38,238 nucleotides of DNA, from positions 1 through 38,238 of IMG/VR virus record IMGVR_UViG_3300035698_002549; one strand, 5' to 3'. This document shows, piece by piece, positions 8,524 to 37,300 of the stretch. Position numbers and translations under genes: made by a program. The notes below the pieces were generated by a model. That model searched no databases and was not told the DNA's origin. It worked only from the letters and a program-made list of their open reading frames with translations. Source of the stretch: a virus. Each line of letters begins with the position of its first letter. Position 1 is the stretch's first letter.

Positions 8524-9198
8524 ATGATCGGACTCAATAATAAATACGCGGTTGTACCGCTTACGTTCCCAGTTGACCAAACGGCTGCATGGGCCAGCAA
8601 CATTATCAGCCTGAAAAATTATCACCAGGCCGAGGTTTATATCATGACAGGCGGCACGTTTGTCTTGACTGCGGCTGTCACTATGCAACAGGGCAACGCC
8701 GTTGATTCAGCGGCTACGGCCTTGGGTTTTACGCTTTACTATGAAACCGGCATGAAGCTTAAATACGACGGCGCGTCGACTACCACGGCGGCGGCTGCTG
8801 GCGAAACCGCAACCGGTGCGGCTGGTGGCATCTGTGTGGTAACTGAAGACCTTGGCAACAGCATCATGGGATATAAAGGCGATGACATTACTGCCTTTGT
8901 GGATAATGAAGTGCTGACCTTTTCCGGTGGAAAAACGGCGGTTGTCAATGGAGTTCTTTATGATGAAGATATCATGGTGCCGCGAACGGCCGCTTTAAAC
9001 ACGTTTAATATCACTCAGGTGTTGGACGTCAACAAAACGTATATGATCCCCATCAACTCTTCCATGCTGGCCGATGGTATGGATTGCATCGAATTGAATG
9101 TCGCGGATTGCGATACCGTGACAGTAGTGGCGGCTTTTGCAATTCTGAGCCAGACTCGCTATGCCGGAACCCCGATGCCAACAGCGATTTACAATTAA
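8524..9198 (+). CDS. Putative virion protein, tandem paralog A
   Basis: A 224-residue protein that I do not recognise by family. It is beta-rich with an Ala/Thr/Gly-rich stretch at ~82-100 (GASTTTAAAAGETATGAA). It is clearly homologous along its whole length to the next gene: both begin MIGLNN, and both share KYDGASTTT and EVLTFSGGKTAVVNG and end with a RYAG-PMP-AIY tail. An excellent AAGGAGG Shine-Dalgarno and its place just behind the capsid gene suggest high expression, and a role as a decoration or head-surface protein is plausible but inferred. No signal peptide. Confidence 0.75.
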   Translation: MIGLNNKYAVVPLTFPVDQTAAWASNIISLKNYHQAEVYIMTGGTFVLTAAVTMQQGNAVDSAATALGFTLYYETGMKLKYDGASTTTAAAAGETATGAAGGICVVTEDLGNSIMGYKGDDITAFVDNEVLTFSGGKTAVVNGVLYDEDIMVPRTAALNTFNITQVLDVNKTYMIPINSSMLADGMDCIELNVADCDTVTVVAAFAILSQTRYAGTPMPTAIYN

Positions 9199-9210
9199 GG
9201 AGGACTTCAA

Positions 9211-9888
9211 ATGATTGGACTCAATAATAAATGGGCGGTTGTACCGGGCTGGCATCCAGTTGATAAGGATGGTGGGGGTACGAGCGATATCATCAGCCTG
9301 AAAGACTACCATCAAGCTGAAATCTATATCATGACCGGCGCGGCGGTTGGTCAAACCGCTGCCGTGGTCTTGTATGAAGGGGTCAGCGTGTCCGATTGTG
9401 ATACGGCCCTTTCGTTTACCCTGTATTACGAAACCGGCCAAATGCTGAAGTATGACGGCGCGTCGACTACCACGGCCGCGGCTGCTGGTGAGACTGCAAC
9501 GGGTGCGGCAACCGGCGTGATGACAGTCTTCGAAGATCGTGGCAACTACATTGTTGGCAACAAATGGGATGCTTCACAGGTATTTGTTGATAACGAAGTG
9601 CTGACGTTCAGCGGCGGCAAAACTGCGGTGGTTAACGGCACCCTGTACAATGAAGACATTATGATCCCAACGGTGCTTGCGGCTGGTGTTGATACATTCA
9701 ACATTGCCGCGACTCTCGACGTCAACAAACTGTATTGCATTCCTGTCAACAGCTCCATGTTGAGCGAAGGGATGGACTGCATTGCGGTGCATATTGGCGA
9801 TCCGAATACTGCCCTAATGGCCTGCTGGTACGTTCTCAGCCAGCCCCGCTATGCCGGACTGCCGATGCCGTCTGCAATTTATGACTGA
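9211..9888 (+). CDS. Putative virion protein, tandem paralog B
   Basis: A 225-residue paralog of the preceding gene, 12 bases downstream, with its own AAGGAGG. Identity is strongest in the centre (KYDGASTTTAAAAGETATG, EVLTFSGGKTAVVNG) and at the C-terminus; the region around residues 40-60 differs. The shared DNA in the centre shows that the pair arose by duplication and has since diverged. The same function class as paralog A is expected, perhaps a decoration protein with two non-equivalent positions. Confidence 0.75.
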   Translation: MIGLNNKWAVVPGWHPVDKDGGGTSDIISLKDYHQAEIYIMTGAAVGQTAAVVLYEGVSVSDCDTALSFTLYYETGQMLKYDGASTTTAAAAGETATGAATGVMTVFEDRGNYIVGNKWDASQVFVDNEVLTFSGGKTAVVNGTLYNEDIMIPTVLAAGVDTFNIAATLDVNKLYCIPVNSSMLSEGMDCIAVHIGDPNTALMACWYVLSQPRYAGLPMPSAIYD

Positions 9889-9903
9889 TAAGGAGGGATT
9901 GAA

Positions 9904-10104
9904 ATGTTAAGAGAAGAACTTGAATCAGTCAAAGCCCATGCCAGAATCATTGCAAAGGAAGAAGTCGCAGCGATTCTGCCGGGACTTGAAAAGCGGCTTG
10001 ACACCATTGAAAAACGGTTGAGGAAACTTGAAGCCGTTCCGGTTCAGAAAGCGGAAAAGGCCGAACCGAAAGCAGTGGAACCCAAAGTGGTTAAAAAGAA
10101 ATAA
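9904..10104 (+). CDS. Small coiled-coil protein with basic tail
   Basis: A 66-residue protein predicted to be almost entirely helical: residues 1-44 carry heptad-like hydrophobics (LREELESVKAHARIIAKEEV, LEKRLDTIEKRLRKLE). A Lys/Pro/Ala tail (EPKAVEPKVVKKK) follows. A good AAGGAGG Shine-Dalgarno is present. I do not recognise it; it could be a small head or scaffold-associated protein that contacts DNA or the shell. Confidence 0.7.
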   Translation: MLREELESVKAHARIIAKEEVAAILPGLEKRLDTIEKRLRKLEAVPVQKAEKAEPKAVEPKVVKKK

Positions 10105-10118
10105 CAGGAGGCTCGAAA

Positions 10119-10562
10119 ATGTTTAATCAAAGCACAAGACAAATGCTGGCGAAAATGGGCGTAGGCCTGCGGGTTGACCGTGATGCCGCTGCTTTGGCTG
10201 CAACGACTGCCACCTTTTTTACTGTGACCGGGCGTGTGCAACTGACCGGCCTTTACGGGGTTGTTACGGTGGCCGCAGGTGGCGCGAATACTTGCCAGTG
10301 GACAATGAATCCGACTGCCGGGACCACGGCACCCATCTGCGGTGGTCTTGACATCGACCCTGCCCTGGTAGGTGACATTTTGGGCATTACCGGTGTCCTC
10401 GCAACGGCTATGACCTATGGCGGCGCTGCTGTTGGCATTATGCAGCCGATTACCCTTACCGCTGGTGCATTGCAGTTCATCGCTTCAGCGGTCGAGGGGT
10501 CCATCAGCACCCATCTGTATTATCTGCCACTGACAGCCGATGGCAGCGTTGTAGCGGCATAA
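10119..10562 (+). CDS. Putative small virion protein
   Basis: A 147-residue protein, rich in Ala, Gly and Thr and predicted mostly beta (TATFFTVTGRVQLTGLYGVVTVAAGG). I do not recognise a family. AGGAGG precedes the ATG. Composition and location resemble small capsid or decoration proteins, and it belongs to the same run of closely spaced genes after the capsid gene. No signal peptide is expected, despite its hydrophobic stretches. Confidence 0.65.
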   Translation: MFNQSTRQMLAKMGVGLRVDRDAAALAATTATFFTVTGRVQLTGLYGVVTVAAGGANTCQWTMNPTAGTTAPICGGLDIDPALVGDILGITGVLATAMTYGGAAVGIMQPITLTAGALQFIASAVEGSISTHLYYLPLTADGSVVAA

Positions 10563-10573
10563 GGGGGTGGATC

Positions 10574-10774
10574 ATGGCGCTTGAAAAAACGGCCACCATT
10601 AAAACCATGCAGGGTGTTTTGGCAGATATGGACGAGCTTACCGACACAGATAAATATCAAGTTGGTTCGACTTTCCACGCGATTGATACCGGAGACGAGT
10701 TTGTACGATCTGCTGGCGGCTGGTTGCCTGACTTGCGAAAAGCGCGAGCCATTAACGTAGCTGCAATGTTGTAA
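10574..10774 (+). CDS. Small phage protein of unknown function
   Basis: A 66-residue protein starting MALEKTATIKTMQGVLADMDELT. It contains YQVGSTFHAIDTGDEFVRSAGGWLPDL, which reads like the short 'head fibre' type segment (VGSTFHAIDTGDEFV...GGW) found in some phage appendage proteins. It is preceded by GGGGG. A virion role is inferred from context only. Confidence 0.55.
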   Translation: MALEKTATIKTMQGVLADMDELTDTDKYQVGSTFHAIDTGDEFVRSAGGWLPDLRKARAINVAAML

Positions 10775-10814
10775 TTGGTAAAACCCAGATTCAGAATCAG
10801 CAGGAGGAACTATC

Positions 10815-11426
10815 ATGTTTGCAAAAATCGGAAGAAACACCCCGGCATCGACCGGAACAAATCCACTTCGGGCCGATCAGCTTGGCGGTCTTATCGTCAG
10901 CGGCAACAACTATCAGGACTCCACCCAAGGCGGTGAAATGTTCTTCGCAAACTGCCTTGATATGGAAGTCGCTCTTTACTCTGCCACGGCTGGCATCGGG
11001 CTTATCGTTTACAATCCGCCCACATCTGGCGTCAACATGATCCCTTATCTTTGGGGAGTTCAGGTTTATGCTACTTCGGCAGCTATGACCGGGATGGTTT
11101 TGGCGGTTGGAACGCAGTTGACCCTGCCAACCACTGTCACGGCGGCTGCATTCACCGGTAAAACGCTTTTGACGGCCAGCACCGGGCTTACCGCTGGCAA
11201 GTGTGCTGCGTACAGTATTGCTACCATTCTGGCTCCCGTACTTGCATGGCCGTTGTTTCACAATACCGCTGCCATCAACACCGTGGGCGCCGAAGTCATT
11301 TCCGGCGATCTGAAGGGTGCAATCGGTTTCGCTCCCGGTACAACCTGCGTTATGGGCGCTTTGGCCGCTGCTGGTGTCAACGTGAATCTGGCCCTGACCT
11401 GGAAGGAAGTGCCGATTGGTCTGTAA
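10815..11426 (+). CDS. Putative virion protein
   Basis: A 203-residue Ala/Thr/Gly-rich, beta-predicted protein that I do not recognise. It begins MFAKIGRNTPASTGTNPLRADQLGG. AGGAGG lies before the ATG. Composition resembles the neighbouring genes at 10119 and 8524, suggesting virion surface proteins. It ends the first part of the accessory head block, being followed by a palindromic element and a strong hairpin. Confidence 0.65.
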   Translation: MFAKIGRNTPASTGTNPLRADQLGGLIVSGNNYQDSTQGGEMFFANCLDMEVALYSATAGIGLIVYNPPTSGVNMIPYLWGVQVYATSAAMTGMVLAVGTQLTLPTTVTAAAFTGKTLLTASTGLTAGKCAAYSIATILAPVLAWPLFHNTAAINTVGAEVISGDLKGAIGFAPGTTCVMGALAAAGVNVNLALTWKEVPIGL

Positions 11427-12574: not shown

Positions 12575-13675
12575 ATGTGGAAGCACCCGATAACAAATAG
12601 CGACGGCATATCAGCCGAAGTAAACCAAGATCCAGGCGAGGACGTTGGACTGGTCGTTGCTACGCGACCGCATAAGACTTTTTACCCGTTCACGGCGTTT
12701 TTCACAAATGACACATACGGACGGGAAATGGCACAAGACGGGGCATTCGGCGCAGGGGCTTTGCTGCTCCACAACGGCACCGATGATGTGGCGTGGACAA
12801 TGAGCAACGTAGTAGGCGGCAAGTGGCAGGCAGCATCAACTGAGAGGCCGTATGCTGGCACTAAATCTTTAAGGTGCGACAAACCTGCCGTTGACGACAT
12901 AATGCAAGTGATAAACAACGTCGGCCCTGGAACCGATGTTGATATGTCCGGTTATATCGCGCTGACCATGTGGATCAACGTTGACAAGGATTGGCTGGCG
13001 GGCGATTCGTTTTCTATATACGCCATGGTTGGCGGTGCCCAAGTCGGCACGAAGGTTTACTTAGAAGACTATTTTAATTATGACGATTACGACATTTATC
13101 AATTTATAAATATACCAATTACAGCCATGGGAATAAGCGCAAGCCTTGTTGATGCTTTTAGGATTGAAAACGAAGCGCGAGGCGGCGGCAAGTCTCCAAA
13201 GTTTTATATCGATGATTTTTACCTACAGACAACCGGTGTTCCGATAATTTATACCGTAAAACCGGACCCAGGAACATGGCTTCACGTTACGGCATTTCAA
13301 ACTACTTTCGTTGACGCTTTGGATACTACATTGGTAGCGGCTTCAATGCCAAGCTTGTCATATGACCAAATTTTAGGGGTGACTCCAACGACAGGCTATA
13401 TTTATAAACGGTACACCGAGTGCTGCACTAATCCTACGAATGAACAACGAATAACCAGCCTGCTTGATTTGTTGAGCCTTCCTTATTCAAGGCTGGTCAG
13501 TTCCGTATCGGATGGAACAAATACAATGATAAATATCACCAACGAATATCCAGACACCATCCCATTTGTTTTAAAGTCGGAGAACTTGGATAAGATGACA
13601 TTCACGGTTGAGGACAAGTTCGACGACTTTTTATTTTTCAGAATATCGCTAACGGGTTTCATGGAGTACCGATGA
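12575..13675 (+). CDS. Putative virion protein with carbohydrate-binding-like module
   Basis: A 366-residue protein. Residues ~80-220 resemble a beta-sandwich CBM-like module: YAGTKSLRCDKPAVDD, then IALTMWINVDKDWLAGDSFSIYAM, and a closing strand FYIDDFYLQTTG. The C-terminal ~140 residues are unlike anything I recognise. It may bind glycans on the cell surface or form a head appendage; this is inference from fold-like pattern. Its stop overlaps the start of the connector gene (ATGA). Confidence 0.6.
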   Translation: MWKHPITNSDGISAEVNQDPGEDVGLVVATRPHKTFYPFTAFFTNDTYGREMAQDGAFGAGALLLHNGTDDVAWTMSNVVGGKWQAASTERPYAGTKSLRCDKPAVDDIMQVINNVGPGTDVDMSGYIALTMWINVDKDWLAGDSFSIYAMVGGAQVGTKVYLEDYFNYDDYDIYQFINIPITAMGISASLVDAFRIENEARGGGKSPKFYIDDFYLQTTGVPIIYTVKPDPGTWLHVTAFQTTFVDALDTTLVAASMPSLSYDQILGVTPTTGYIYKRYTECCTNPTNEQRITSLLDLLSLPYSRLVSSVSDGTNTMINITNEYPDTIPFVLKSENLDKMTFTVEDKFDDFLFFRISLTGFMEYR

Positions 13676-14631
13676 AAGTAATTATAGCTACGGCCCCGAC
13701 CATTGAGCCTATAACTTTGGCAGAGGCAAAAAAGCATCTCTATGAAGACTCAGAGACGTTCGACGGCAATTTGACTATCACTCAGTCGCTTGCCCATGGC
13801 TCGCATATCATAGCTGACAACTATACCGTGCATGTTGGCACAGGGTTTGACGTTTTAGGGTACGAGGCCATTGTTCAACTTTCGGCTGGAACGAACGGGG
13901 CTACAGGAACGAATGAAACCAGAATAGAAGAATCTGACCAGCTTGCAATTGGATACACAGCATGGACCGGTGGCCTGTTTACTACGGTTACAACGGCAAA
14001 TGATAACGCCGATTATAAAATCCAATATACCGGAACGAAGCAATATATCCGCACAGCGTCGAAAGTTCTTTTAGCGGCTTGCGAGTTTTCAACGTCGATC
14101 ATCGTCAACGAGTCCACAACGGCCCAGGACGATGCTTTAGGCGATGACATACAAGCGGCAAGGGAACACGTTGAAGACGTCACCAGACGCGCCCTGCTTA
14201 CTCAAACGTGGGATTATTACCTTGACGCCTTTCCGGCTTACAACTCAATCAAAATACCGTTTGGGAGTTTGGCGAGTGTAACCCATATAAAATATACCAA
14301 CAGTTTGGGAACCGAAACCACCATGACAGTTACCACGGACTACATCGTGGAAACGAACGGGACGCAATGTGGGCGTATTGTTTTGCCTTATGGCAAGTCG
14401 TGGCCTTCATTCACGGCTTATACGTCAAAGCCGATTGTTATTAGGTTTATTTGCGGCTGGACAACGGCGGCATTACTGCCACGGCGAATCAAATCAGCGG
14501 TTAAAATGTACTTGACCGATCTTTGGGAGAATCGAGAATCACAGATATTTTCGACTACCATGCAGCCGTATGCTCAGAACGAATCGGTTGACGCTTACCT
14601 TGCACCTTTGCGCTTGTGGGACGAGTTCTAA
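13672..14631 (+). CDS. gp6-like head-tail connector with inserted domain
   Basis: A 319-residue adaptor that binds beneath the portal. The gp6 family pattern is split: EPITLAEAKKHL at ~12-23, then from ~155 DDIQAAREHVEDVTRRALLTQTW, IPFGSLASVTHIKY, IVLPYGKSWP, IVIRFICGW and the helix IKSAVKMYLTDLWENRES. Typical members are about 100 residues shorter. The extra segment, ~29-152, is beta-predicted and Thr/Gly-rich (NYTVHVGTGFDVLGYEAIVQL). The next gene starts immediately after its stop. Connector identity is firm; the insert is unidentified. Confidence 0.85.
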   Translation: MKVIIATAPTIEPITLAEAKKHLYEDSETFDGNLTITQSLAHGSHIIADNYTVHVGTGFDVLGYEAIVQLSAGTNGATGTNETRIEESDQLAIGYTAWTGGLFTTVTTANDNADYKIQYTGTKQYIRTASKVLLAACEFSTSIIVNESTTAQDDALGDDIQAAREHVEDVTRRALLTQTWDYYLDAFPAYNSIKIPFGSLASVTHIKYTNSLGTETTMTVTTDYIVETNGTQCGRIVLPYGKSWPSFTAYTSKPIVIRFICGWTTAALLPRRIKSAVKMYLTDLWENRESQIFSTTMQPYAQNESVDAYLAPLRLWDEF

Positions 14632-14949
14632 ATGAGAACTGGCCAGCTAAATAAAGTTATCAACTTCGAAGCACAACAGAAAGTGCCTGACGGCATGGGA
14701 TCGTTCACAACGACATGGACAGTGGTTGCCGCAAATGTGGCCGCTGCAATCTGGCCTAAAAGCGCAATGGAAACCATGCGTGCCGAATCTGTGACGATGA
14801 TTTCAACCATACGATTTAGGATTCGCTACCGGTCGGTTATGAGGGCGGCATGGCGTATTTCGTGGGCTGGAAAATATTATAATGTCGTTTCGTTCATTGA
14901 TCCACAAAAAGACCACAGGTGGATGGACATTGTTTGCAAGGAAGCGTGA
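14632..14949 (+). CDS. Head-tail joining / head-closure protein (SPP1 gp16 / HK97 gp7-like)
   Basis: A 105-residue protein of the Phage_H_T_join family. It has the expected beta-barrel signature: TGQLNKVINFEAQQKVPDGMGSFTTTW near the start, then SVTMISTIRFRIRYRS and a closing WRISWAGKYYNVVSF...DHRWMDIVCKEA. It stacks under the connector and closes the head. It follows the gp6-like gene without a gap, matching the standard gene order. Length is normal. Confidence 0.88.
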   Translation: MRTGQLNKVINFEAQQKVPDGMGSFTTTWTVVAANVAAAIWPKSAMETMRAESVTMISTIRFRIRYRSVMRAAWRISWAGKYYNVVSFIDPQKDHRWMDIVCKEA

Positions 14950-14986: not shown

Positions 14987-15817
14987 ATGCAGGATCTAAA
15001 AAACAAGCATAAAAACCAGACCGCCTGGATCATAGGGTCCGGTCCGTCACTTGAACACCTTACCCAAGAAGACATTGGAGACGGGCCTGTCATTACATTG
15101 AACACTGCGATTATAGCCGTTGAACCCTTAAACCTATCTAATCCAGTTTATTCCATGCAAAAAGACGGTGGATCAAAGCGCAGACGGTCAACAGCAAACG
15201 GTGGGGATAATCTGTCTCCTGATTGTGATCATAGAAGTGAATGTGGGGTTGAATGTGGCGTCTTAACTATGCCAAAAAAGGCGACATTACTATTGCATGA
15301 TCTTGAATCAAAATACTGTTTTTCTGATTACCATGACCGCTATGTTTTAAATCTTAAAGAATTAGGATTGCCAAAGAATGTATTTTCACTAATTTTTGCC
15401 GTTAAAGCGGCTCAATATATGGGATGTGATGATTTTAAATTCATATCTTGTGACGCCCATACTATCGGAGACATGCGGACGTATATCCCAGGCAAAGGAA
15501 TATTCGAAGAAAATTATCTCGAACAGATAGGTAGGTTTAAAATCCATTTGATTGGCATACCGCACGAATTTATCACACCTGGTCGGTGGGACAAGGAGGT
15601 AAAGGTGGACGAAAAAAAATTCATAGAATACATCGAAGACATGAAAATAATGAAATTGAAAAAGGGTGATGTGGTTTTCGTTCGCGTCAACCATCCTATT
15701 GCAGCCGAAGTCGCGGTCAGCATTTCAAAAGGTGTATCGGAAAAATTGCCCAAGGGCATCAACGTCATTGTCTTTGACAGTGCTGCCGACATTGGAGTAA
15801 TGAGGGCTGGATCTTGA
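14987..15817 (+). CDS. MptE/DUF115-like protein fused to a small phage domain
   Basis: A 276-residue protein in two parts. Residues ~1-200 start with TAWIIGSGPSLEHLTQEDI; the GSGPSL loop typifies the MptE/DUF115 (Maf-like) superfamily associated with flagellin or surface glycosylation. FAVKAAQYMGCDDFKFISCDAH fits the family's later strand. Residues ~215-276 (MKLKKGDVVFVRVNHPIAAEV...LPKGINVIVFDSAADIGVM) resemble a free-standing small phage domain of the type 'LKxGDVVxVRV...VxVxDxxxDIGV'. An in-frame GTG at 15605 with its own AAGGAGG could express this C-terminal part alone. It opens a cassette of sugar-transfer genes. Family assignment is moderate. Confidence 0.65.
   Translation: MQDLKNKHKNQTAWIIGSGPSLEHLTQEDIGDGPVITLNTAIIAVEPLNLSNPVYSMQKDGGSKRRRSTANGGDNLSPDCDHRSECGVECGVLTMPKKATLLLHDLESKYCFSDYHDRYVLNLKELGLPKNVFSLIFAVKAAQYMGCDDFKFISCDAHTIGDMRTYIPGKGIFEENYLEQIGRFKIHLIGIPHEFITPGRWDKEVKVDEKKFIEYIEDMKIMKLKKGDVVFVRVNHPIAAEVAVSISKGVSEKLPKGINVIVFDSAADIGVMRAGS
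15605..15817 (+). CDS. Possible internal in-frame translation product (70 aa)
   Basis: AAGGAGG at 15594-15599 is followed five to six bases later by GTG at 15605, in frame with the larger gene. The product would be the 70-residue C-terminal domain starting (M)DEKKFIEYIEDMKIMKLKKGD. The strength and spacing of the site equal those of the genuine starts nearby. Either the larger gene arose by fusion and keeps the old start, or both proteins are made. Confidence 0.45.
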   Translation: MDEKKFIEYIEDMKIMKLKKGDVVFVRVNHPIAAEVAVSISKGVSEKLPKGINVIVFDSAADIGVMRAGS

Positions 15818-16227
15818 AAAACTTACTAACGGCTATTTTCGGTAAAACCGCAGGGTCTACGCTTTCGACTTCTGTTGGCGGTCGGATTTTCCTTGACGAA
15901 GCGCCTGCTGATTCAGAGTTTCCGTATGCGGTTTTTCAAGTTGTGAATACATCGCCCGAAAGAACGTTTACAGAAGACTTCGAAGAAACGTCAATCCAGT
16001 TTTCGATTTATTCCGATTCACTTTCAGCTACTGAGATTTCAACTATTCAAGGCTATTTAGACTCGCTGTTTGACGAAGGCTCGACTTTTGCAGTTACCGG
16101 GTCAACATTGATCTGGATGCGGCGAAACAATACGGTGACTATGACCGATAATATAACGACTGATTCAGGCACGTTCACGCTTCGGCATTGGGCAACTGAC
16201 TTCGACATTCTCGTATCAAAGGATTAA
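15814..16227 (+). CDS. Tail completion-like protein (DUF3168-like)
   Basis: A 137-residue protein with the pattern of DUF3168/tail-completion proteins: a hydrophobic N-terminal helix (LLTAIFGKTAGSTLS), then GGRIFLDEAPADSEFPYAVFQVVN and FTEDFEETSIQFSIYSDSLSATE, and a final strand FTLRHWATDFDILVSK. It would sit at the head-proximal tail end. The start is a TTG overlapping the preceding TGA (TTGA), with GAGGG upstream; no ATG is available. It is flanked on both sides by sugar-modifying genes, an unusual position. Confidence 0.75.
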   Translation: MKNLLTAIFGKTAGSTLSTSVGGRIFLDEAPADSEFPYAVFQVVNTSPERTFTEDFEETSIQFSIYSDSLSATEISTIQGYLDSLFDEGSTFAVTGSTLIWMRRNNTVTMTDNITTDSGTFTLRHWATDFDILVSKD

Positions 16228-16229
16228 CT

Positions 16230-17447
16230 ATGATATCAGTAATCATCCCGGTTTTAAATCAACACGAACTCACGGATATTTGCATCAACGAAGTTTTGCG
16301 AACTGTTGACGCAAAAGATCTTGAATTGATTATCGTTGACAACGGATCGGAACCGCCAATCAAACCGCCGTTTTCAGGGTTTGCCGAAACTAAGCTGATT
16401 CGGAACGAAGACAACAAAGGGTTTCCGGCTGCTGTCAATCAGGGGATGCGTGAAGCTACCGGTGACGTGATCGTGCTTTTGAATAATGACGTAATCGTGA
16501 CAAACGGGTGGGCTTTAAAGCTGGTATCTGCCCTTGAAGAATTCGATATAGTTGGCCCGGTGACTAACTATTGCGCTGGTATGCAAAAGGTTCAAGCCGA
16601 AACATACGAAGATATTGCAGATCTAAATAAAAGTGCTGGTGATTGGGCTGAAAATTGGGACGATTCGGTCGAGCCGGTAAATTTCATTATTGGTTTTTGC
16701 ATGGCATTTCGTAAATCGCTTTTTGACGAGCTTGGCGATTTCGACGAATCGCTATGGCCATGTTGCGGTGAGGAAGTTGATTTCTGTTTCAGGGCCAAGG
16801 AAGCTGGAAAGCATGTTGCCATTGTCAACGGATGCTATGTCCACCACGAAGGCAGCAAGACGTTTGCCGACTTGGAAGAGTCGGGCAAACTTGACTACGC
16901 CGCTGTTTGCAAAAAAACCGATGCCCACCTTTTCGAGAAATGGGGTGGTAATTTTTGGGAACGTCAAGCCATAAGTTCAAGTCCTGAACCGATCGGCATT
17001 TGCCTGAACCTTGGATGCGGATACCATAAATTAAACGGGTTTATAAATATAGACAATCGGGCAGAGGTTGGGCCGGATCTGGTTTGCGATGTTTTGGCTG
17101 GATTGCCCTATGAGGACGGCTCAGTTGACATGGTTCGGGCTTATGACTTCCTGGAACACATTCCTATTGGTTCAACGGTGGGTGTTGTAAGCGAGATTTG
17201 GCGCGTTTTAAAACCGGGCGGCGTCTTCGAAAGCTTAACACCTTCGACAGATGGCCGAGGGGCTTTCATGGACCCAACCCATGTAAGTTTTTGGAATTGT
17301 CATTCCTGGCTTTACTATTCAGACGATCAATACCGGGGGTTGTACGATATTAAAGCGAACTTTGAAATCGAATCAATCGAAGATAAAGAGATTATTTCAG
17401 GCATGGGAACAATCCATACTCACGTCATAGCAAAGGCGAAAAAATGA
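16230..17447 (+). CDS. Glycosyltransferase family 2 fused to a SAM methyltransferase
   Basis: A 405-residue bifunctional protein. Residues 1-~230 are a GT-A fold, family 2 type: SVIIPVLNQ, IIVDNGS (34-40), NKGFPAAVNQG, NNDV (85-88) as DXD-like metal site, and EEVDFCFRAKEAGK. Residues ~255-405 are a class I methyltransferase: LNLGCG (259-264), NID (273-275), DGSVDMVRAYDFLEHI and VLKPGG. It probably transfers a sugar and methylates it or a neighbouring group. It overlaps the next glycosyltransferase gene (ATGA). A TTAAACGGGTTTAT match to the palindromic element falls at the domain junction. The target is unknown: virion protein, DNA or host surface. Confidence 0.88.
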   Translation: MISVIIPVLNQHELTDICINEVLRTVDAKDLELIIVDNGSEPPIKPPFSGFAETKLIRNEDNKGFPAAVNQGMREATGDVIVLLNNDVIVTNGWALKLVSALEEFDIVGPVTNYCAGMQKVQAETYEDIADLNKSAGDWAENWDDSVEPVNFIIGFCMAFRKSLFDELGDFDESLWPCCGEEVDFCFRAKEAGKHVAIVNGCYVHHEGSKTFADLEESGKLDYAAVCKKTDAHLFEKWGGNFWERQAISSSPEPIGICLNLGCGYHKLNGFINIDNRAEVGPDLVCDVLAGLPYEDGSVDMVRAYDFLEHIPIGSTVGVVSEIWRVLKPGGVFESLTPSTDGRGAFMDPTHVSFWNCHSWLYYSDDQYRGLYDIKANFEIESIEDKEIISGMGTIHTHVIAKAKK

Positions 17448-18133
17448 AAATCAGCAACTTTAAACTTGGAATTGGAATTCCGCTGACATTCCCAACCGTG
17501 CCGTCTGGGTTTTTCTATTCTTTCGCACTTATGGATAAGCCTGATTTTACGTTGATCCACGAAGACAACGGGCCTATTGATACCCTTCGAAACAACATTG
17601 TTTTACGGGCGTTGAATGCGGGTTGCTCCCATGTTGTGATGATGGATACAGACATGGAATATCACCCTGAAACCATCCCGCGTTTACTGTCTCACAACCT
17701 ACCAATCGTGGGCGCTCTTTGTTATCGTCGATACCCTCCATTTGATCCGCTGCTGCTAAAGGGTGATCCGGTTGGTGGGTATGTAAGCCAAGACGAATGG
17801 GAAGAAGGCGAATTAAAAGAGGTTGACGCTACCGGTACAGGGTGCCTACTTTTCAAAATGGAAGTGTTCAGAAAAATGCCGCCTCCTTGGTTTCATTTTA
17901 GGGATAATCCAAATCAGGATATTGGCGGTGTGATTGGTGAAGATATCGGTTTTTGTTGGGACTTAAAAAAAGCAGGGCATAGAATTTTTGTGGATACCTC
18001 TGTACCATCAAACCATCTAACGACACTGGCCATAAACGATTCAACTTACCGCCTTTATAAGGCAATGAAAACGCGCCAAAAGGAACAGGCTATTTCAAAA
18101 GCACTATCCAGCGGCGACCAAAAAGGAGATTAA
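17444..18133 (+). CDS. GT-A type glycosyltransferase
   Basis: A 229-residue protein of a phage glycosyltransferase type. It has IDTLRNNIVLRALNAGCSHVVMMDTDMEYHPETIPRLL, with DTDM as the DXD metal-binding motif, then GALCYRRYPP, EVDATGTGCLLFKMEVF and IGEDIGFCWDLKKAGHRIFVDTSV, a usual acceptor-site region. It overlaps the preceding fusion gene, so the two are probably made together and act on the same target. It ends two bases before the tail tube gene, whose Shine-Dalgarno is inside it. Confidence 0.85.
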   Translation: MKISNFKLGIGIPLTFPTVPSGFFYSFALMDKPDFTLIHEDNGPIDTLRNNIVLRALNAGCSHVVMMDTDMEYHPETIPRLLSHNLPIVGALCYRRYPPFDPLLLKGDPVGGYVSQDEWEEGELKEVDATGTGCLLFKMEVFRKMPPPWFHFRDNPNQDIGGVIGEDIGFCWDLKKAGHRIFVDTSVPSNHLTTLAINDSTYRLYKAMKTRQKEQAISKALSSGDQKGD

Positions 18134-18135
18134 CC

Positions 18136-18567
18136 ATGGCAACCAGGGCAGTAGTTTTAAAAGGCGAATTTTGCAAGGTCACGATTGGCACCTATAAACT
18201 TCTGGGTGCTGGCACTTACTCAATTTCAGGCTTCACCAGAAACACTGAGGACGTTTCGGAGTTCGGAGACGACATCGACGTTTACGAATTCGTTACGGCC
18301 AACGGTGGCACCATTTCCATTTCGGATGTGCTTTACGATCCGACTGATACGACCGGCCAGGTGCTGCTTGATTCGGCTTGCCTGAATTATTCCAAGTTCG
18401 GGTCCGGTGGCATTTGCTTTTTTGTCAATTCCACGTCATTTCGAACCGTGGCCAGCGGTGGGCATTTACTCGTAACCAAGAGCCATGCGGTAGAAATGGC
18501 CCGAAACGGTTTGGGCAAATGTTCTTTTGAAGCGCAGGTTTCCGGTGGCGCAATGGTACTTGTTTAA
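18136..18567 (+). CDS. Major tail tube protein (probable)
   Basis: A 143-residue protein with AAAAGGAG before the ATG. Its position, directly before a frameshifting chaperone pair and the tape measure, is that of the tail tube protein. The sequence is beta-rich (GEFCKVTIGTYKLLGAGTYSISGFTR; GGTISISDVLYDPTDTTGQVLLDSAC; a final strand KCSFEAQVSGGAMVLV), consistent with the tube's beta-barrel. It is short for a tube protein but in range. No Ig-like extension. Confidence 0.8.
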   Translation: MATRAVVLKGEFCKVTIGTYKLLGAGTYSISGFTRNTEDVSEFGDDIDVYEFVTANGGTISISDVLYDPTDTTGQVLLDSACLNYSKFGSGGICFFVNSTSFRTVASGGHLLVTKSHAVEMARNGLGKCSFEAQVSGGAMVLV

Positions 18568-18584: not shown

Positions 18585-19034
18585 TTGATATTTGATCTTG
18601 ATAAACGCGAAAAAGGTGATTGGTTCAAGTACTTCAAAAGCCACATTGACCCTGACACGCTGAAAGTGGTTTATGTCGAACCCGAACCGGATGCGGCAGA
18701 GTTCTGTATGCGGCCCATGGGTCCGTTCTTTTCAGAGCGCCGGAAGCTACGCAAGCGCGAATCCAAGATGGTGCTGAACCCTCAGACCAGGGGCATGGAG
18801 CGCGTGGCCTATCTGGTGGACCTGACAGCCGATGAAGAGGAAAAAGAGAACTCATTGGCTTGGGATTATGCCATTACCGGCTGGCGTGGCGTCTTCGTTA
18901 AAAAAGGCGTTGAGCTTGAATGCACGGCAGAGAATAAACTGCGGCTTTCGAACGTTCCTGAATTTGCCCGGTTTGCAACCCGTGTATTTGAAGTCATCAA
19001 CGGCGTTACGGGCGAACCGGAAAAAAACTCATAG
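18585..19034 (+). CDS. Tail assembly chaperone G (zero-frame product)
   Basis: A 149-residue, charged protein that by position is the gpG-like tail assembly chaperone. It starts at TTG 18585 with AAAGGAG eight bases upstream; no ATG is nearer. It contains basic and acidic helical blocks (ERRKLRKRESKM; DEEEKENSLAWDYAITGW). Near its end the codons GAA-AAA-AAC create a slippery heptamer just two codons before TAG. Such chaperones bind the tape measure during tail assembly. Confidence 0.82.
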   Translation: MIFDLDKREKGDWFKYFKSHIDPDTLKVVYVEPEPDAAEFCMRPMGPFFSERRKLRKRESKMVLNPQTRGMERVAYLVDLTADEEEKENSLAWDYAITGWRGVFVKKGVELECTAENKLRLSNVPEFARFATRVFEVINGVTGEPEKNS

Positions 19035-19795: not shown

Positions 19796-22700
19796 ATGGC
19801 AGGCAAACCAGTAGGGACAATATATGCAGAGCTTGATCTGGATACGACCAAGTTCACCCGTGCGCAAAAAACCATCCTGAAAGAAGCCCAGGTGGTCACT
19901 ACTGGCGTTGAAAAGAATTACAAGACCTTGGGCGTCAAGTCTGCGGCGATGTTCAACGCCATGCGCGATCAGGCTGAAAACGCATATCAGGGGATTGCCC
20001 ATAGTTCCAGGGCTACGGCTGACGATATCGTTAGAGCTGAAAAAGCAAAGAACGCGAAAATCAAACAGTTGAATCAGCAACAGTTTGGCGATCAAAACAA
20101 GATGTTAACGCATCTGAAAAACAACTGGAAACTTTATGGGGCTGCTGCCGCTGCCGCTGTTGGCCTTGCGGTTAGATCATCCATAAAACAATACGAAGAG
20201 TTTGAGGTTGCTTTAAACAGGTTAGGCAATGTTTCCGATGATACCCTTGTCACTATGAAGGGGCGAATCATGGACGTTTCCCCGGTGCTTGGCTCAGTAA
20301 CCGAGTTGACCAAAGGTTATTATCAGGTCATGTCTGCCGGTGTTACCGAACCGTTAAAAGCCATGGAGCTTTTAAGGATTTCTGCCGGTGTCTCTAAGGA
20401 GTCAACTATTGAACAGGCCGATGCTGTCAAGGGTCTGGCCGCGTTAATGAGTACTTACAGCGACGAAGTAGAAAGCGCAGGGGCCGCTGCCGATTTGCTG
20501 TATGCCACAGAGCGATATGGTATTACAACAGTTGGCGAATTAACGCCCCTGATTGGAAACTTGGCTAATATGTCAAAAGCTGTCGGCCTTCATGCAAATG
20601 AAATGGCCGCTGCAATGGCTCAGATTTCCACTACCGGTGCCGGTACGTCTCAATCGGTAACGCAGTTACAATCCCTTTTAACTGCCCTGTCAAAGAAGTT
20701 TGAACTGCTCCCAGAATCCATTAAAAAATACGGATCATCTATTGCCGCCGTTGAAGACTTGGGGTTCGAAGGTGTTTTAAAGGAGATTTGGGACGCTACT
20801 GATGGGAACTCTTCAGCGCTTGTCAAAATGCTTGGACGGCAAGAAGCATACATGGCCCTGCTCCAATTATCCAAGAACGAATTTAAGGGGTATGAAGAGC
20901 GTCTCGTAGGCATGACGGATAAGGTAGGGGCTTTTGATGCCGCTTGGAAGCGATACGGACTTACGTTTAGGGCGACTAAAGAAGAGTTTCTAAATACCAT
21001 CGGGCGCGAAGCTGTCATGCTTGGCGAAGAGCTTGCACCGGCTTTAAAGGAGGTTATTGGTGACACTTCCGAATGGGTGGGTGAAAACCGGGGTCTGATA
21101 AATTCAAGCGTGGTCGGAACAATCAAAGCCATGACGATGGCGGCTAAAGCATACGCCACTGTTATGAATGCGGTTGGCGGTGTTTATAAATTTGCTGCAA
21201 CCGGTGGTGTTGGAGGGGCATTAGTAAGAGGCGTTGCCAGTGTAATTCCAGAAGTCGAACGGGTCACAGAAGAATTTGATAACATGCATGATGGTATTTT
21301 AACGGTTACTTCTGACGTTGAAGACTTTGGATATAGGTCTTCTGAATCTCTGCGGGAATCGGTTGAATACGGCAACAGGCTAAAGATAGAGGAAAACAAA
21401 CTTACAATTCGATTGAAAATAGCAGAACTTGAACAGAGAAAGGCAATAGCGAAGGAACAAAAAAAGATTGATGATGATTCTGCGTCTGAATATGAGAAGG
21501 TACTTAAAAAATCAATCAGCTATGGCGAGAAATTAAAAAGAGAGGAATTGGCACTTAAAATCAGGCTGGCCAAATTAGGAAACGAACAAACCGCTGATTC
21601 TTTAAAGGTTGATGCCGATGCACTTGCCGCCCACAACGCGCTGATCCTATCAAAAGATCAAAGCCTTGCACAAGACCGTCTTGACATTACAGAACGAAAC
21701 GCGGCTGCAAAAGCCAAAGCCGAAAAGACGTTTTTTGAGGGTTTCAAGGAAGGGCTTGAGAAATCACAAGAAGAAATGTATACTTGGGGCGAAGCTGGCG
21801 CGGACGTTGCCAAAGAAATGACAGACTCCATGACTTCAAGTTTATCGGATTTTATCAACCCGCTTTCAGATGAATTCCTAAGCCTAAGTTCTTTGGTCGA
21901 TACGGTTTTTGAGTCAATGGTAAATGCCGCTGCCGATGCGGTTTCGCGCATGGCTGTTGAGTGGGCCGTGGCTGAGGGTATGTCTTTTCTGCAAGACGTT
22001 ATGTTTTCGCATTCAGGTACTTGGGATATGAAGCCAGACGAAGCTGGCGTAGTAGTCCAAAAAGGCCAGATGATTATCCCAAGGGAAGCGTCAGAGAATA
22101 TCCGTGGGACGTTTGGGTCAATGGATGCGCTGGAAGCGTTTTCTAATTCCATGGCTGGCAAGGATCTATCCGGCCCTATATCCGATGCAGAACGGGCAGG
22201 GCTTGCATCTGCCGGTAGAACTATGGGACTCAGGGCGGCTACTGGCGCATCATTAATGGCTTCTGGCACGATAGACGCAAGCGGTTTTGCAAGGGGCATG
22301 ACTTCGCCGGGCGCCATGGTTGGATATGGGTCGGCGGCTGTTACCGGATACGCTACCAATGCGCTTGGCGTTCAATCTGGAAAGGTGTCGAACATTGGCG
22401 GCTTAATTGGCCAAATGGTAGGCGCTGCCGCTGCTGGCAAAGCTGGCGCTGTAGCTGGCGGGATACTTGGCCAAATGGTTGGTGACTTGGCCGCTGATAT
22501 TGCAAATGCAAGAGACAACGAAGACGTGCGGGACGCCATTGAAACCATGAACCCAGGGTACTTTGCAGGGAGACAGGCAACCCGTGGACTTCAAGGGATT
22601 GGCGAATTCGGATCGACCACGGCATGGGGCGGCATGGACCCAAGAGGTGGAGAATCGACCGGTGGTGGCGCTTCTGGTGGTGGCCGTGGCGGTAGCGGTG

Positions 22701-22999
22701 AAACGTCTTCTGATGCTTCGGGCGGTATGGGCGGCGTGCTTCATGGTGGGTGGACTTCCGGGCCGTTGTCTGGATACGATGTAAAGCATCATGGAACAGA
22801 GGTGACTCTTAATAAAAAAGAAGTTGATGTTTTAAGAAGCGTCATCGGTGGAAGCAACGACCGTCAATCACAATCAGGACCACAACAAATCAATATTATT
22901 TTCGATGGTCATACGGTTGGAACAATCATGGTAAACCAAATAAACGAAAACCCGGAAGTCGCAGACGCGATAGATATTCGGGTTGCTGCGGTGGCATAA
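19796..22999 (+). CDS. Tail tape measure protein
   Basis: A 1067-residue protein that sets tail length; at about 0.15 nm per residue it implies a tail near 160 nm. Residues ~130-340 match the PhageMin_Tail core (SSIKQYEEFEVALNRLGNVSDDT, ELTKGYYQVMSAGV, STIEQADAVKGLAALMSTY, ELTPLIGNLANMSKAVGL). Hydrophobic stretches occur at ~114-126 and ~870-920. A charged coiled-coil at ~520-600 contains a duplicated ~26-residue block. Residues ~945-985 are Gly/Ser-rich. The Shine-Dalgarno is weak, which fits the low amount needed. It ends one base before the next ATG. Confidence 0.93.
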   Translation: MAGKPVGTIYAELDLDTTKFTRAQKTILKEAQVVTTGVEKNYKTLGVKSAAMFNAMRDQAENAYQGIAHSSRATADDIVRAEKAKNAKIKQLNQQQFGDQNKMLTHLKNNWKLYGAAAAAAVGLAVRSSIKQYEEFEVALNRLGNVSDDTLVTMKGRIMDVSPVLGSVTELTKGYYQVMSAGVTEPLKAMELLRISAGVSKESTIEQADAVKGLAALMSTYSDEVESAGAAADLLYATERYGITTVGELTPLIGNLANMSKAVGLHANEMAAAMAQISTTGAGTSQSVTQLQSLLTALSKKFELLPESIKKYGSSIAAVEDLGFEGVLKEIWDATDGNSSALVKMLGRQEAYMALLQLSKNEFKGYEERLVGMTDKVGAFDAAWKRYGLTFRATKEEFLNTIGREAVMLGEELAPALKEVIGDTSEWVGENRGLINSSVVGTIKAMTMAAKAYATVMNAVGGVYKFAATGGVGGALVRGVASVIPEVERVTEEFDNMHDGILTVTSDVEDFGYRSSESLRESVEYGNRLKIEENKLTIRLKIAELEQRKAIAKEQKKIDDDSASEYEKVLKKSISYGEKLKREELALKIRLAKLGNEQTADSLKVDADALAAHNALILSKDQSLAQDRLDITERNAAAKAKAEKTFFEGFKEGLEKSQEEMYTWGEAGADVAKEMTDSMTSSLSDFINPLSDEFLSLSSLVDTVFESMVNAAADAVSRMAVEWAVAEGMSFLQDVMFSHSGTWDMKPDEAGVVVQKGQMIIPREASENIRGTFGSMDALEAFSNSMAGKDLSGPISDAERAGLASAGRTMGLRAATGASLMASGTIDASGFARGMTSPGAMVGYGSAAVTGYATNALGVQSGKVSNIGGLIGQMVGAAAAGKAGAVAGGILGQMVGDLAADIANARDNEDVRDAIETMNPGYFAGRQATRGLQGIGEFGSTTAWGGMDPRGGESTGGGASGGGRGGSGETSSDASGGMGGVLHGGWTSGPLSGYDVKHHGTEVTLNKKEVDVLRSVIGGSNDRQSQSGPQQINIIFDGHTVGTIMVNQINENPEVADAIDIRVAAVA

Positions 23000-34966: not shown

Positions 34967-37300
34967 TTACGCCACTTTCCCCTTGTAAAACTCTGCAAAT
35001 TCCGATTGGATTTTTTGCGGTGTGCCGTGTGGCAGGCCGTTGGCAATTTGGATCGGCCCTGCCTGAAACTTTTCCATAAAGAATTCACGAACGATAGCTC
35101 CGAAAAGATCGTCAACTTCGACCCCAACTGTTGACGCGGCGAAGTTCACAGCACCACCAAAATTAGAGATTACCGGCAAGTCGGAAAGCTGTTGTTGTTC
35201 CGGTGCAGGTGGCTTGCCTTCGTTGCACCATTCGTCAAGATGAACCACGATTCGTTCACGGACGGGTTCCTGATACATGGTTTCGTAAAGGTGGGTCATT
35301 TGGCCGGTAATGGCAGGACTAAAGGCGCGGATGAATTCAATCGCTTTGCCCATGAGCGTTCCCGGTGCCAGCTTGGCAACTTTTTCCGTCTCGATGATGT
35401 GGTTTCGCAGCGCATGACACGGCGCAATATCCTCCAATAAAGTCTCAAAATGGTGGACATGCTGGAGCTGGATCATGTTCCGGCTTTCTATGTCAAACGG
35501 TTTAATCTTACCGTCTGTTTTGTCGTGTACGCTGAACAATCGCATTGCCAGTTTGACACCGGCATCGTCGTAGCCTTTTTCGCTGATCTGAGACATGATA
35601 CGTTTAATGGCTTTCCTTTCAGGGTCGGTGCCGATTGGGTCCGTGGGTTGACCGGAGAAAACGAATGCGGTTGTGCCGGCATTGTCGGCCAATCGTTTCA
35701 ATTCCAACCATGCGGCAAACCCGGGGTGGTCGGTCTGATATTTGAACTTATCGAACTTGGCCCATATCTGGTTGAGCACCGGGGCAGAGGTAACGGCCAT
35801 GCGCTGTTCATCTGAAATCAACAACAACATGCCCTTTTGTTTCAGCTTGTTCAGGTCTGCTGGTTGATACCCTACTGCACCGTTCTTCTCCGCCAGCGAC
35901 TTTTCAGCGGCCTGCCGTTCGGCTTCAACTGCCGGATCTGTTGACAGGCCGTTGGCGTCCAGGGGTGGTTTGGTTTGCAGGGCGGCCAATGTAATATCCA
36001 CAAATTCGCCTTGGCCTTCGCCGTTGACAGTTCGTTCAACCCTGAAAATGGGCGCGGCTTGGTCGGTGGCGTTGATGTCTGTGATCTTGACGGTTATGGT
36101 CTTTTTGAGTTTGGCCGAGTAGAACGCATAGTTACCGCCGACTTGATAGCCGAAAGCCACCTGGCAGGCTGCTGAATTGCCATTGTCGGGCGTTTCCGCT
36201 TCGGCCTGTGCATCGGTATGGGTTTCCGGTTCTGGACTCGTTGTGACAGCGCTGGCCCCTTGTGAGGCATTGGTTTTATATCCGGTGCCCCTGGCCGTCG
36301 GCGCCCCCACTGGTACAACGTCAACAGGTTCTTTTTTCTCCGGTTCGACGGTGCCGGGTTTGGGTTTCAAATCGTAGTTTGGCTTTTCGGTGGCGCCGTT
36401 TGCCACGGCGATATCATTTGCAGTTTTTTCTTTTTCCGGGTCAATCGTTTCGGTGCTGACTTGTTCAGGGTAGAATTCAGGCACCACATCTTCGTCCATC
36501 ATGTCGGAGTCGTAGGCAATCAGGCGTCGGGCATCTTTTTCAATGTCTTCCATCCTGATCTGGTGTTTCTGACGGTCAAGGGCCATCGTGTATCCTATTT
36601 CACGTAGCTTTTCAAACGTGCCACGGTATTCAAGGCCGACAACGTAAACCGTTTGGACTCTGTTTGTTCCAGGGGCTATAACGGTTTTGGGCGTGACTCG
36701 CAACATCAAAGGCACCCCTGCCAGCGGTCCACCTGTCACGGATTTGATAAGCGTCAATGAAGACAGGATACCAACAACAGAATTGTAAGAAGTGGTGCGA
36801 AACTTCCAGACACCGCCCACAGATTCGGCACCGTCGATAATGACCGAAAGTGCCCCGTTGATCTTGCACTTTTCCCGGCCATGATATTCTGGATTCTGAC
36901 GTTCACATGGGCATTCTACCATCTGATATTTTCCTTGACCGGCAACCCGCTTTGCCCTGATACCGTCACCGGTACACCATGCCACCATGCCCTGAAAACA
37001 TGAATACCGGCAAACGAAGTTGAGAAGCATGTCGTCATAGAGAAGTCGAACCGGTAATTCGGTTGGAGCGTCACCATAAAGCTGGTGGATTTCCTCGTCA
37101 CGGATAAAATTGTCATCCGGTCCCCGCATCATTCCAACAATACGGAAGTGGTCAAGTTTTTGCGGCGGTTGGAACTGGTTTCCCTGTTTCGACCGGATCA
37201 TTTCCCCCTTTTCACCGATCTTTATCTTGCCACGTTCCATCAATGCCGGGATAAGGTTTGCGATTTGGTTCGGTCTGAAATTACTCGCTTCGTTTTCCAT
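34967..37300 (-). CDS. RDF-like (phiC31 gp3-type) N-terminal domain, large phage protein
   Basis: A 777-residue protein. Residues ~50-265 match the recombination directionality factor-like family of phage proteins: YGDAPTELPVRLLYDD, WCTGDGIRAKR, CPCERQNPEYHGREKCKINGALSVII, WKFRTTSYNSVVGILSSL and VVGLEYRGTFEKLREIGY, with Cys pairs consistent with a zinc site. Residues ~270-400 are low-complexity and acidic (EPEKKEPVDVVPV). Residues ~405-777 are not recognised; they include HVHHFETLLEDIAPCHALR and a helix-rich end. The true RDF role requires a serine integrase, which is not seen. AAAGGA precedes the ATG at 37300. Confidence 0.75.
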   Translation of the reverse strand: MENEASNFRPNQIANLIPALMERGKIKIGEKGEMIRSKQGNQFQPPQKLDHFRIVGMMRGPDDNFIRDEEIHQLYGDAPTELPVRLLYDDMLLNFVCRYSCFQGMVAWCTGDGIRAKRVAGQGKYQMVECPCERQNPEYHGREKCKINGALSVIIDGAESVGGVWKFRTTSYNSVVGILSSLTLIKSVTGGPLAGVPLMLRVTPKTVIAPGTNRVQTVYVVGLEYRGTFEKLREIGYTMALDRQKHQIRMEDIEKDARRLIAYDSDMMDEDVVPEFYPEQVSTETIDPEKEKTANDIAVANGATEKPNYDLKPKPGTVEPEKKEPVDVVPVGAPTARGTGYKTNASQGASAVTTSPEPETHTDAQAEAETPDNGNSAACQVAFGYQVGGNYAFYSAKLKKTITVKITDINATDQAAPIFRVERTVNGEGQGEFVDITLAALQTKPPLDANGLSTDPAVEAERQAAEKSLAEKNGAVGYQPADLNKLKQKGMLLLISDEQRMAVTSAPVLNQIWAKFDKFKYQTDHPGFAAWLELKRLADNAGTTAFVFSGQPTDPIGTDPERKAIKRIMSQISEKGYDDAGVKLAMRLFSVHDKTDGKIKPFDIESRNMIQLQHVHHFETLLEDIAPCHALRNHIIETEKVAKLAPGTLMGKAIEFIRAFSPAITGQMTHLYETMYQEPVRERIVVHLDEWCNEGKPPAPEQQQLSDLPVISNFGGAVNFAASTVGVEVDDLFGAIVREFFMEKFQAGPIQIANGLPHGTPQKIQSEFAEFYKGKVA

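Follow-up and report, generated by a model that had tools for sequence, protein, structure and literature searches.

The window analysed here is a complete IMG/VR virus record of 38,238 bp (IMGVR_UViG_3300035698_002549), in which three open reading frames (ORFs) for sugar enzymes lie between the head-closure gene and the tail tube gene. They encode a DUF115-like protein (14987-15817), a fusion of a GT2 glycosyltransferase (GT) with a methyltransferase (16230-17447), and a second glycosyltransferase of the GT-A type (17444-18133). An earlier note on this DNA had described them as a sugar-modification cassette split by a DUF3168-like gene, and this description was borne out, as all three ORFs are intact and Pfam supports the GT2, methyltransferase, GT-A and tail terminator assignments. 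The interval from the tail terminator to the tail tube is called the slot below, and locus labels (L001, L104, etc.) denote relatives' loci surveyed in IMG/VR and GTDB genomes. The region carries the following features:

14987-15586, plus strand: DUF115-like domain, residues 1-200 of the 276-residue ORF 14987-15817 (weak Pfam match to PF01973, relatives, AlphaFold2 (AF2) fold)
15611-15814, plus strand: small C-terminal domain, residues 209-276 of the DUF115 ORF (comparison with L001 and L101)
15814-16227, plus strand: tail terminator (DUF3168/gp17-like) with a TTG start, bounding the slot on the left (Pfam PF11367, E value (E) 9.4e-12; phrog_176)
16230-16979, plus strand: GT2 glycosyltransferase domain, residues 1-250 of the fusion 16230-17447 (Pfam PF00535, E 7.9e-24)
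16992-17444, plus strand: class I S-adenosylmethionine (SAM) methyltransferase domain, residues 255-405 of the fusion (Methyltransf_11, E 1.1e-7; phrog_6636, E 1.2e-10)
17444-18133, plus strand: GT-A glycosyltransferase (A197/Anp1-like), final gene before the tail tube (Pfam Anp1, AF2, A197 fold)
17645-17653, plus strand: D68-T-D70, the DxD metal motif of the GT-A enzyme (both Asp conserved in all 65 relatives)
17936-17944, plus strand: G165-E166-D167 motif of the GT-A enzyme (invariant in 65 relatives; profile alignment to 2c0n)
18136-18567, plus strand: major tail (tube) protein of the bare core type, which bounds the slot on the right and is the proposed target (relatives' weak matches to Phage_tail_2 and lambda-like tail tube protein; followed by chaperone and tape measure)
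18436-18438, plus strand: Ser101 codon of the tail tube in an NSTSF motif, candidate O-glycan acceptor (column comparison of tube alignments)
14632-14949, plus strand: head-closure protein (Hc1/Phage_HCP), upstream neighbour (Pfam PF05521, E 4.7e-25; phrog_25)
18585-19034, plus strand: tail assembly chaperone, downstream neighbour (phrog_313, E 1.1e-5)

The gene order starts with the head-tail adaptor (13672-14631) and head closure, continues with the DUF115-like ORF, the tail terminator, the GT2-methyltransferase, the GT-A enzyme, the tail tube and the chaperone, and then reaches the tape measure (19796-22999); the terminator gene, which also matches Tail_completion_gp17 (45.6 bits, cut-off 24.5), separates the DUF115-like gene from the other two enzyme genes. 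The overlapping or abutting frames noted earlier were found at nearly every joint (4-bp overlaps or gaps of at most 2 bp), but not in front of the DUF115 ORF, where 37 bp after the head-closure stop form the sole wide joint. The DUF115 ORF and the terminator overlap by 4 bp, with the TTG start overlapping the preceding stop; the GT2-methyltransferase begins 2 bp past the terminator and shares an ATGA overlap with the GT-A gene; the tail tube starts 2 bp past the GT-A end. Promoter-like and terminator-like sites across the region were no commoner than in shuffled sequence, which is consistent with one operon, and the cassette genes are presumably expressed late.

A gene-neighbour survey, as proposed in the earlier note, was carried out by iterating profiles of the window proteins over loci from IMG/VR and GTDB genomes. 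Among 72 non-redundant complete loci, which span the terminator to the tube or chaperone, 69 carry at least one glycosyltransferase between these borders, and in 65 of those 69 the tube or chaperone gene is directly preceded on the structural strand by a glycosyltransferase gene. Some 100 loci hold 171 GT-labelled genes, all on the structural strand; 167 of them lie in the slot or, where a contig breaks off, in a position consistent with it. Many loci had been retrieved with the glycosyltransferase as query, so the 23 loci first found via terminator or tube queries form a less biased subset, and 18 of them have a glycosyltransferase in the slot; the statistic is limited to this lineage rather than to all phages, since these queries came from cassette phages. 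The gaps from terminator to glycosyltransferase and from glycosyltransferase to tube are often between -4 and +25 bp. A scan of IMG/VR matched 245 GT-A-encoding stretches, and the slot is also filled in five metagenome-assembled contigs labelled Methanoperedens, Lutibacter, Deltaproteobacteria, FCB bacterium and pseudomonadote (binning labels as given). Slot, strand and gene overlaps are thus kept across very divergent phages, dozens of them environmental. According to the ratios of nonsynonymous to synonymous substitution (dN/dS about 0.03-0.24 when close pairs of GT-A or GT2 genes are compared), the enzymes are maintained by purifying selection. When 50,697 phage records were searched by tblastn for the DUF115, terminator and tube proteins, there were no matches, and literature searches returned no description of a glycosyltransferase slot between terminator and tube. 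In extent and regularity the system goes beyond what the single window could show.

The commonest constant parts of the slot are GT2 at the start and GT-A at the end, with a variable set of genes in the middle. These include methyltransferases of the RMNT_CmcI/Methyltransf_24 (rhamnosyl-O-methyltransferase) type, C-methyltransferases (Methyltransf_13/14), radical SAM/SPASM proteins, and GT17, GT92 and GT4 domains. In some loci a family termed GTX stands in for GT-A, again immediately before the tube; it has no Pfam match and was taken as a glycosyltransferase from its sequence motifs, position and fusions. Fusions of enzymes are recurrent, namely GT2 with GT-A (L093, L077), DUF115 with GTX (L006, L126), DUF115 with a glycosyltransferase and GT-A (L090), and DUF115 with Methyltransf_24 (L138), which argues for a single pathway. 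The variable contents, and the presence of NUMOD homing-endonuclease-like genes, would fit an insertion hotspot that collects passenger carbohydrate-enzyme genes without a common function. However, the genes are overwhelmingly of one functional class, on one strand and in overlapping frames, with the first and last enzymes conserved, purifying selection at work and enzymes repeatedly fused, and we regard a hotspot as highly improbable.

Radical SAM proteins, some with SPASM domains, were observed in the slot of L034 (5356-6015), L067 (6843-7820), L022, L066, L070, L075 and L083, and could act on the sugar or on the tube peptide itself. NUMOD3 homing-endonuclease-like genes occur in or beside the slot after several invasions, in L006 (5432-6283), L008 (10413-11120), L038, L047, L052, L053 and L061.

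The GT-A enzyme matches the Anp1/GT62-like family PF03452 above the cut-off (31.3 versus 28.8 bits), and its AF2 model has a predicted local distance difference test score (pLDDT) of 95.8. The closest solved fold is A197 of Sulfolobus turreted icosahedral virus (STIV) (Foldseek E 2.5e-9; Z 19.5 over 171 residues, 18% identity in the structural alignment), followed by the glycosyltransferase domain of LH3 (lysyl hydroxylase, Z about 19), mimivirus R699, COLGALT1 (16.5) and Mnn9 (15.9); bacterial teichoic-acid glycosyltransferases and GalNAc-T2 (Z 14.0) are further matches. Many of these enzymes act on proteins or glycoproteins. Counted along the profile alignment to 2c0n, D167 of the window enzyme pairs with D151 of A197. 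In STIV, D151E slows viral replication, and virus could not be recovered once A197 was lost (PMC10551542). The two systems are alike in this fold, in the aligned GED motif and in the glycosylated coat protein of STIV, with which a glycosylated virion protein here would agree; they differ in that STIV is an archaeal tailless virus with a single glycosyltransferase and no methyltransferase. Capsid or tail genes are also the direct neighbours of GT-A relatives found in records of podovirus-like phages and archaeal viruses. In L121 (4857-5486), L122 (2367-3011) and L123 (5878-6573) (MW202711, MW202496 and PP438425), the GT-A relative comes right after the major capsid gene, with one small gene intervening in two of them, and this order suggests that the capsid may be glycosylated in those podovirus-like phages.

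The GT2 domain of the fusion scores 84.9 bits against PF00535 (cut-off 23.3), and its acidic motifs N86-D87 and G180-E181 are invariant among seven relatives. The methyltransferase domain probably tailors the sugar. Many phage GT2 proteins are annotated as enzymes that modify host surface glycans (O-antigen or exopolysaccharide), by which superinfection would be blocked or the serotype changed; a weak GtrB-like match (phrog_841) is an example, and methylated sugars do occur in O-antigens. Such a role nevertheless seems quite improbable for the cassette. Among the matches listed for slot ORFs (the best 25 of 37 families) there is no GtrA-like flippase or membrane-bound glycosyltransferase family, the window enzymes have no hydrophobic segment (19-residue means of at most 1.3), and the cassette is locked in the tail operon, unlike GtrABC genes, which usually adjoin an integrase.

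The MptE/DUF115-like label given earlier to the first enzyme holds at the level of fold but not of the Pfam score, which is 16.5 bits against a cut-off of 34.6 for PF01973; the relative in L138 scores 28.6 bits, likewise under the cut-off. The AF2 model of the core (pLDDT mostly above 90) has the Rossmann-type fold common to MptE, SteA, thiamine pyrophosphokinase and the GT42/GT29 sialyltransferases, and VIA-align gave Z 11.2 for MptE, 9.7 for GT29 and 8.7 for GT42, so that MptE is nominally closest. The sole coherent profile matches in the PDB were to GT42, with non-significant E of 0.26-0.96. A sialyltransferase label, suggested by Foldseek alone (best E 0.035), was not adopted, as VIA-align puts MptE first. 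DUF115 relatives are encoded in 43 viral loci, usually within the slot in this lineage and elsewhere often beside sugar-type methyltransferases or glycosyltransferases, while in the window the ORF sits just 5' of the terminator.

Judging from this context, the DUF115-like protein may be a Maf-type transferase. Maf flagellin glycosyltransferases belong to the DUF115 superfamily. According to PMC11339370, Maf enzymes O-glycosylate surface Ser/Thr of the flagellin filament. The likeness lies in the acceptor, which is a surface Ser/Thr of a filament protein for Maf and is proposed to be the same for the window tube, whereas the window DUF115 domain is short and below the PF01973 cut-off. The small C-terminal domain (68 residues) has no Pfam match; it occurs as a free-standing 67-residue protein in L001 (4478-4681) and inside the cassette in L101, always beside the cassette. 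The L001 ORF was at one point considered a decayed DUF115 remnant, which was discarded because it is actually the separate small domain that is fused to DUF115 in the window.

Glycosylation of mycobacteriophage virions (Che8, Corndog and Myrna) was reportedly described by Freeman et al. in 2023, as relayed by citing papers. According to PMC12363180, PMC11600133 and PMC12619734, the virions of these three phages are reported to be glycosylated, and the targets in mycobacteriophages are the capsid and the tail tube. Che8 encodes a trio in overlapping frames (56171-58673), consisting of gp108 (GT2 with TylF/Methyltransf_24), gp109 (GT2) and gp110 (GT25). Like Che8, the window carries a fusion of GT2 with a sugar-type methyltransferase plus further glycosyltransferases in overlapping frames, so that glycosyltransferases and a sugar-type methyltransferase share one operon as in mycobacteriophage-type systems. 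By analogy, the window set may work as those systems do. The slot GT2 profile matches Che8 gp109 (E 8e-9 in a set of eight proteins) and leaves gp108 and gp110 unmatched; beyond the glycosyltransferase superfamily, the sequences are mostly non-homologous. The Che8 genes are located at the right-hand end of the genome, outside the tail operon, the GT25-like gp110 is without a profile counterpart here, the Che8 trio is without DUF115, and the tail tube belongs to another family. The module had been put forward in the earlier note as possibly undescribed. Virion glycosylation as such is already known in mycobacteriophages; what is new here is that the slot from terminator to tube is fixed and its middle modular, that a DUF115 component is included, and that there are correlations with the tail tube.

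The enzymes might instead glycosylate bases of the phage DNA against restriction, and DNA hypermodification is indeed a known activity of virus-encoded glycosyltransferases (work cited in PMC12619734). This is the least probable of the explanations considered: the cassette is placed with structural genes, the fold matches are protein or carbohydrate glycosyltransferases, and a thymidylate synthase/dCMP hydroxymethylase gene (PF00303) was found in 0 of 14 records, which may be fragments. Together with the conserved slot and the Che8-like enzyme kit, these observations uphold the view that virion glycosylation is to be preferred to DNA modification.

The tail tube protein, encoded immediately after the cassette, differs between loci with and without it. 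Tubes are mostly 137-150 residues long in cassette phages versus 226-244 residues in the cassette-free L104 and L097, which share a C-terminal domain. A scan for the long tube retrieved L167-L173 plus the contig of L104 itself. The terminator ends 12-29 bp before the tube in six independent long-tube loci with a recognised terminator, and in L172 an unlabelled gene of 145 residues occupies the terminator position, 12 bp 5' of the tube. Glycosyltransferase profiles match nowhere in the long-tube loci L167-L173, giving seven loci without a glycosyltransferase before the tube. Tail tubes with Ig-like or carbohydrate-binding extensions are found in lambda, SPP1 and lactococcal 936 phages, and within one phage group both naked and extended tubes are found (PMC6669499). 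The likeness is that the tail tube is decorated along its length, with protein there and, as proposed, with glycan here; the relatives with extended tubes are without the cassette. It is possible that protein decoration has been exchanged for glycan decoration on the tube.

The C-terminal domain carries the motif LIVEGSTSNDG and was observed only where the glycosyltransferase cassette is absent, in L104 (10438-11172), L097 (1289-1969) and L166-L173. Two tail tube genes in tandem were seen in L021, L037, L041, L053, L054, L061 and L097.

When the tube alignments were compared column by column, the Ser101 column stood out, with a difference of 0.94 versus 0.58 for the runner-up. Of 65 dereplicated cassette tubes, 61 have Ser or Thr in this column; of 11 cassette-free tubes none does, and most have Asp there. 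Fisher values for this contrast are not readable as probabilities, given about two changes of the cassette label on the tube tree. The tube of L072 (10659-11642), where the cassette is also present, has 327 residues, of which about 190 are inserted directly after a DSTSYW motif, and the Ser101 loop is therefore probably outward-facing.

Taken together, we favour, with moderate confidence, a virion-protein O-glycosylation module in the structural operon, with the tail tube as its most likely target. The enzyme activities, sugar donor and acceptor residue are put forward here as predictions, as is the purpose, which may be shielding or host interaction. During synthesis of the virion protein, GT2 and GT-A would attach and extend a sugar on it, the methyltransferase domain would cap or tailor this sugar, and the DUF115-like enzyme would probably attach one more residue, in the way that related Maf enzymes modify flagellin. 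The tail tube protein encoded 2 bp downstream would be the acceptor, plausibly at Ser101 in the outward-facing loop, and glycosylation of the tube would lay a sugar coat over the whole tail. A bolder proposal, which we offer only tentatively, is that this is a dedicated, modular tube-glycosylation locus across widespread uncultured tailed phages, always placed from terminator to tube, which puts a variable and often methylated sugar on one conserved Ser/Thr per tube subunit, with sugar coat and protein decoration being interchangeable.

Several observations weigh against the favoured reading. The cassette label changes only about two times on a poorly resolved, long-branched tube tree, so that the tube correlations are explicable by ancestry alone. 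L001 has Gly at the position of Ser101 despite its cassette. In a mirror-tree test, tube distances followed GT-A no better than did chaperone distances (difference -0.02, 95% interval -0.19 to 0.15). The C-terminus of the window tube is not Ser/Thr-rich, whereas the mycobacteriophage glycans are located at subunit C-termini, with both capsid and tube modified (PMC12619734). In podovirus-like phages, whose GT-A relatives adjoin capsid genes, another protein may be the target. The DUF115 fold is equally near to MptE and to sialyltransferases.

The serious rival is a different virion target, although we consider it unlikely. The main glycosylated protein would then be the major capsid protein, the head decoration proteins (8524-11426) or the 957-residue tail protein, and the slot would be a convenient site for late expression. 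GT-A relatives next to the capsid gene in Manatee Spring and Microcystis phages, the joint modification of capsid and tube in mycobacteriophages, and the phylogenetically thin contrast at Ser101 all speak for it. On the other hand, the tube gene forms the end of the slot, and lack of the cassette is accompanied by a tube of altered type, both of which point back to the tail tube. The nearby Thr/Ala/Ser-rich virion proteins, to which attention had been drawn as possible targets, turned out to hold 12-20% Ser plus Thr, with nothing outstanding among them.

To date, glycosylation of phage particles has been demonstrated in a few mycobacteriophages. If a fixed glycosylation slot in many environmental phages is confirmed, virion glycosylation would be common outside actinobacterial phages. 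The correlations suggest that a tail can be decorated in either of two ways, by a sugar coat or by protein domains. As the enzymes are few and both a likely substrate and a candidate acceptor residue are named, the proposal is testable.

Two further observations were made in the window. Two proteins of 224 and 225 residues, encoded in tandem after the capsid gene (8524-9198 and 9211-9888), are duplicates of each other and probably serve in head decoration. On the minus strand, a protein of 777 residues (34967-37300) carries an N-terminal Gp3-like (recombination directionality factor-like) domain.

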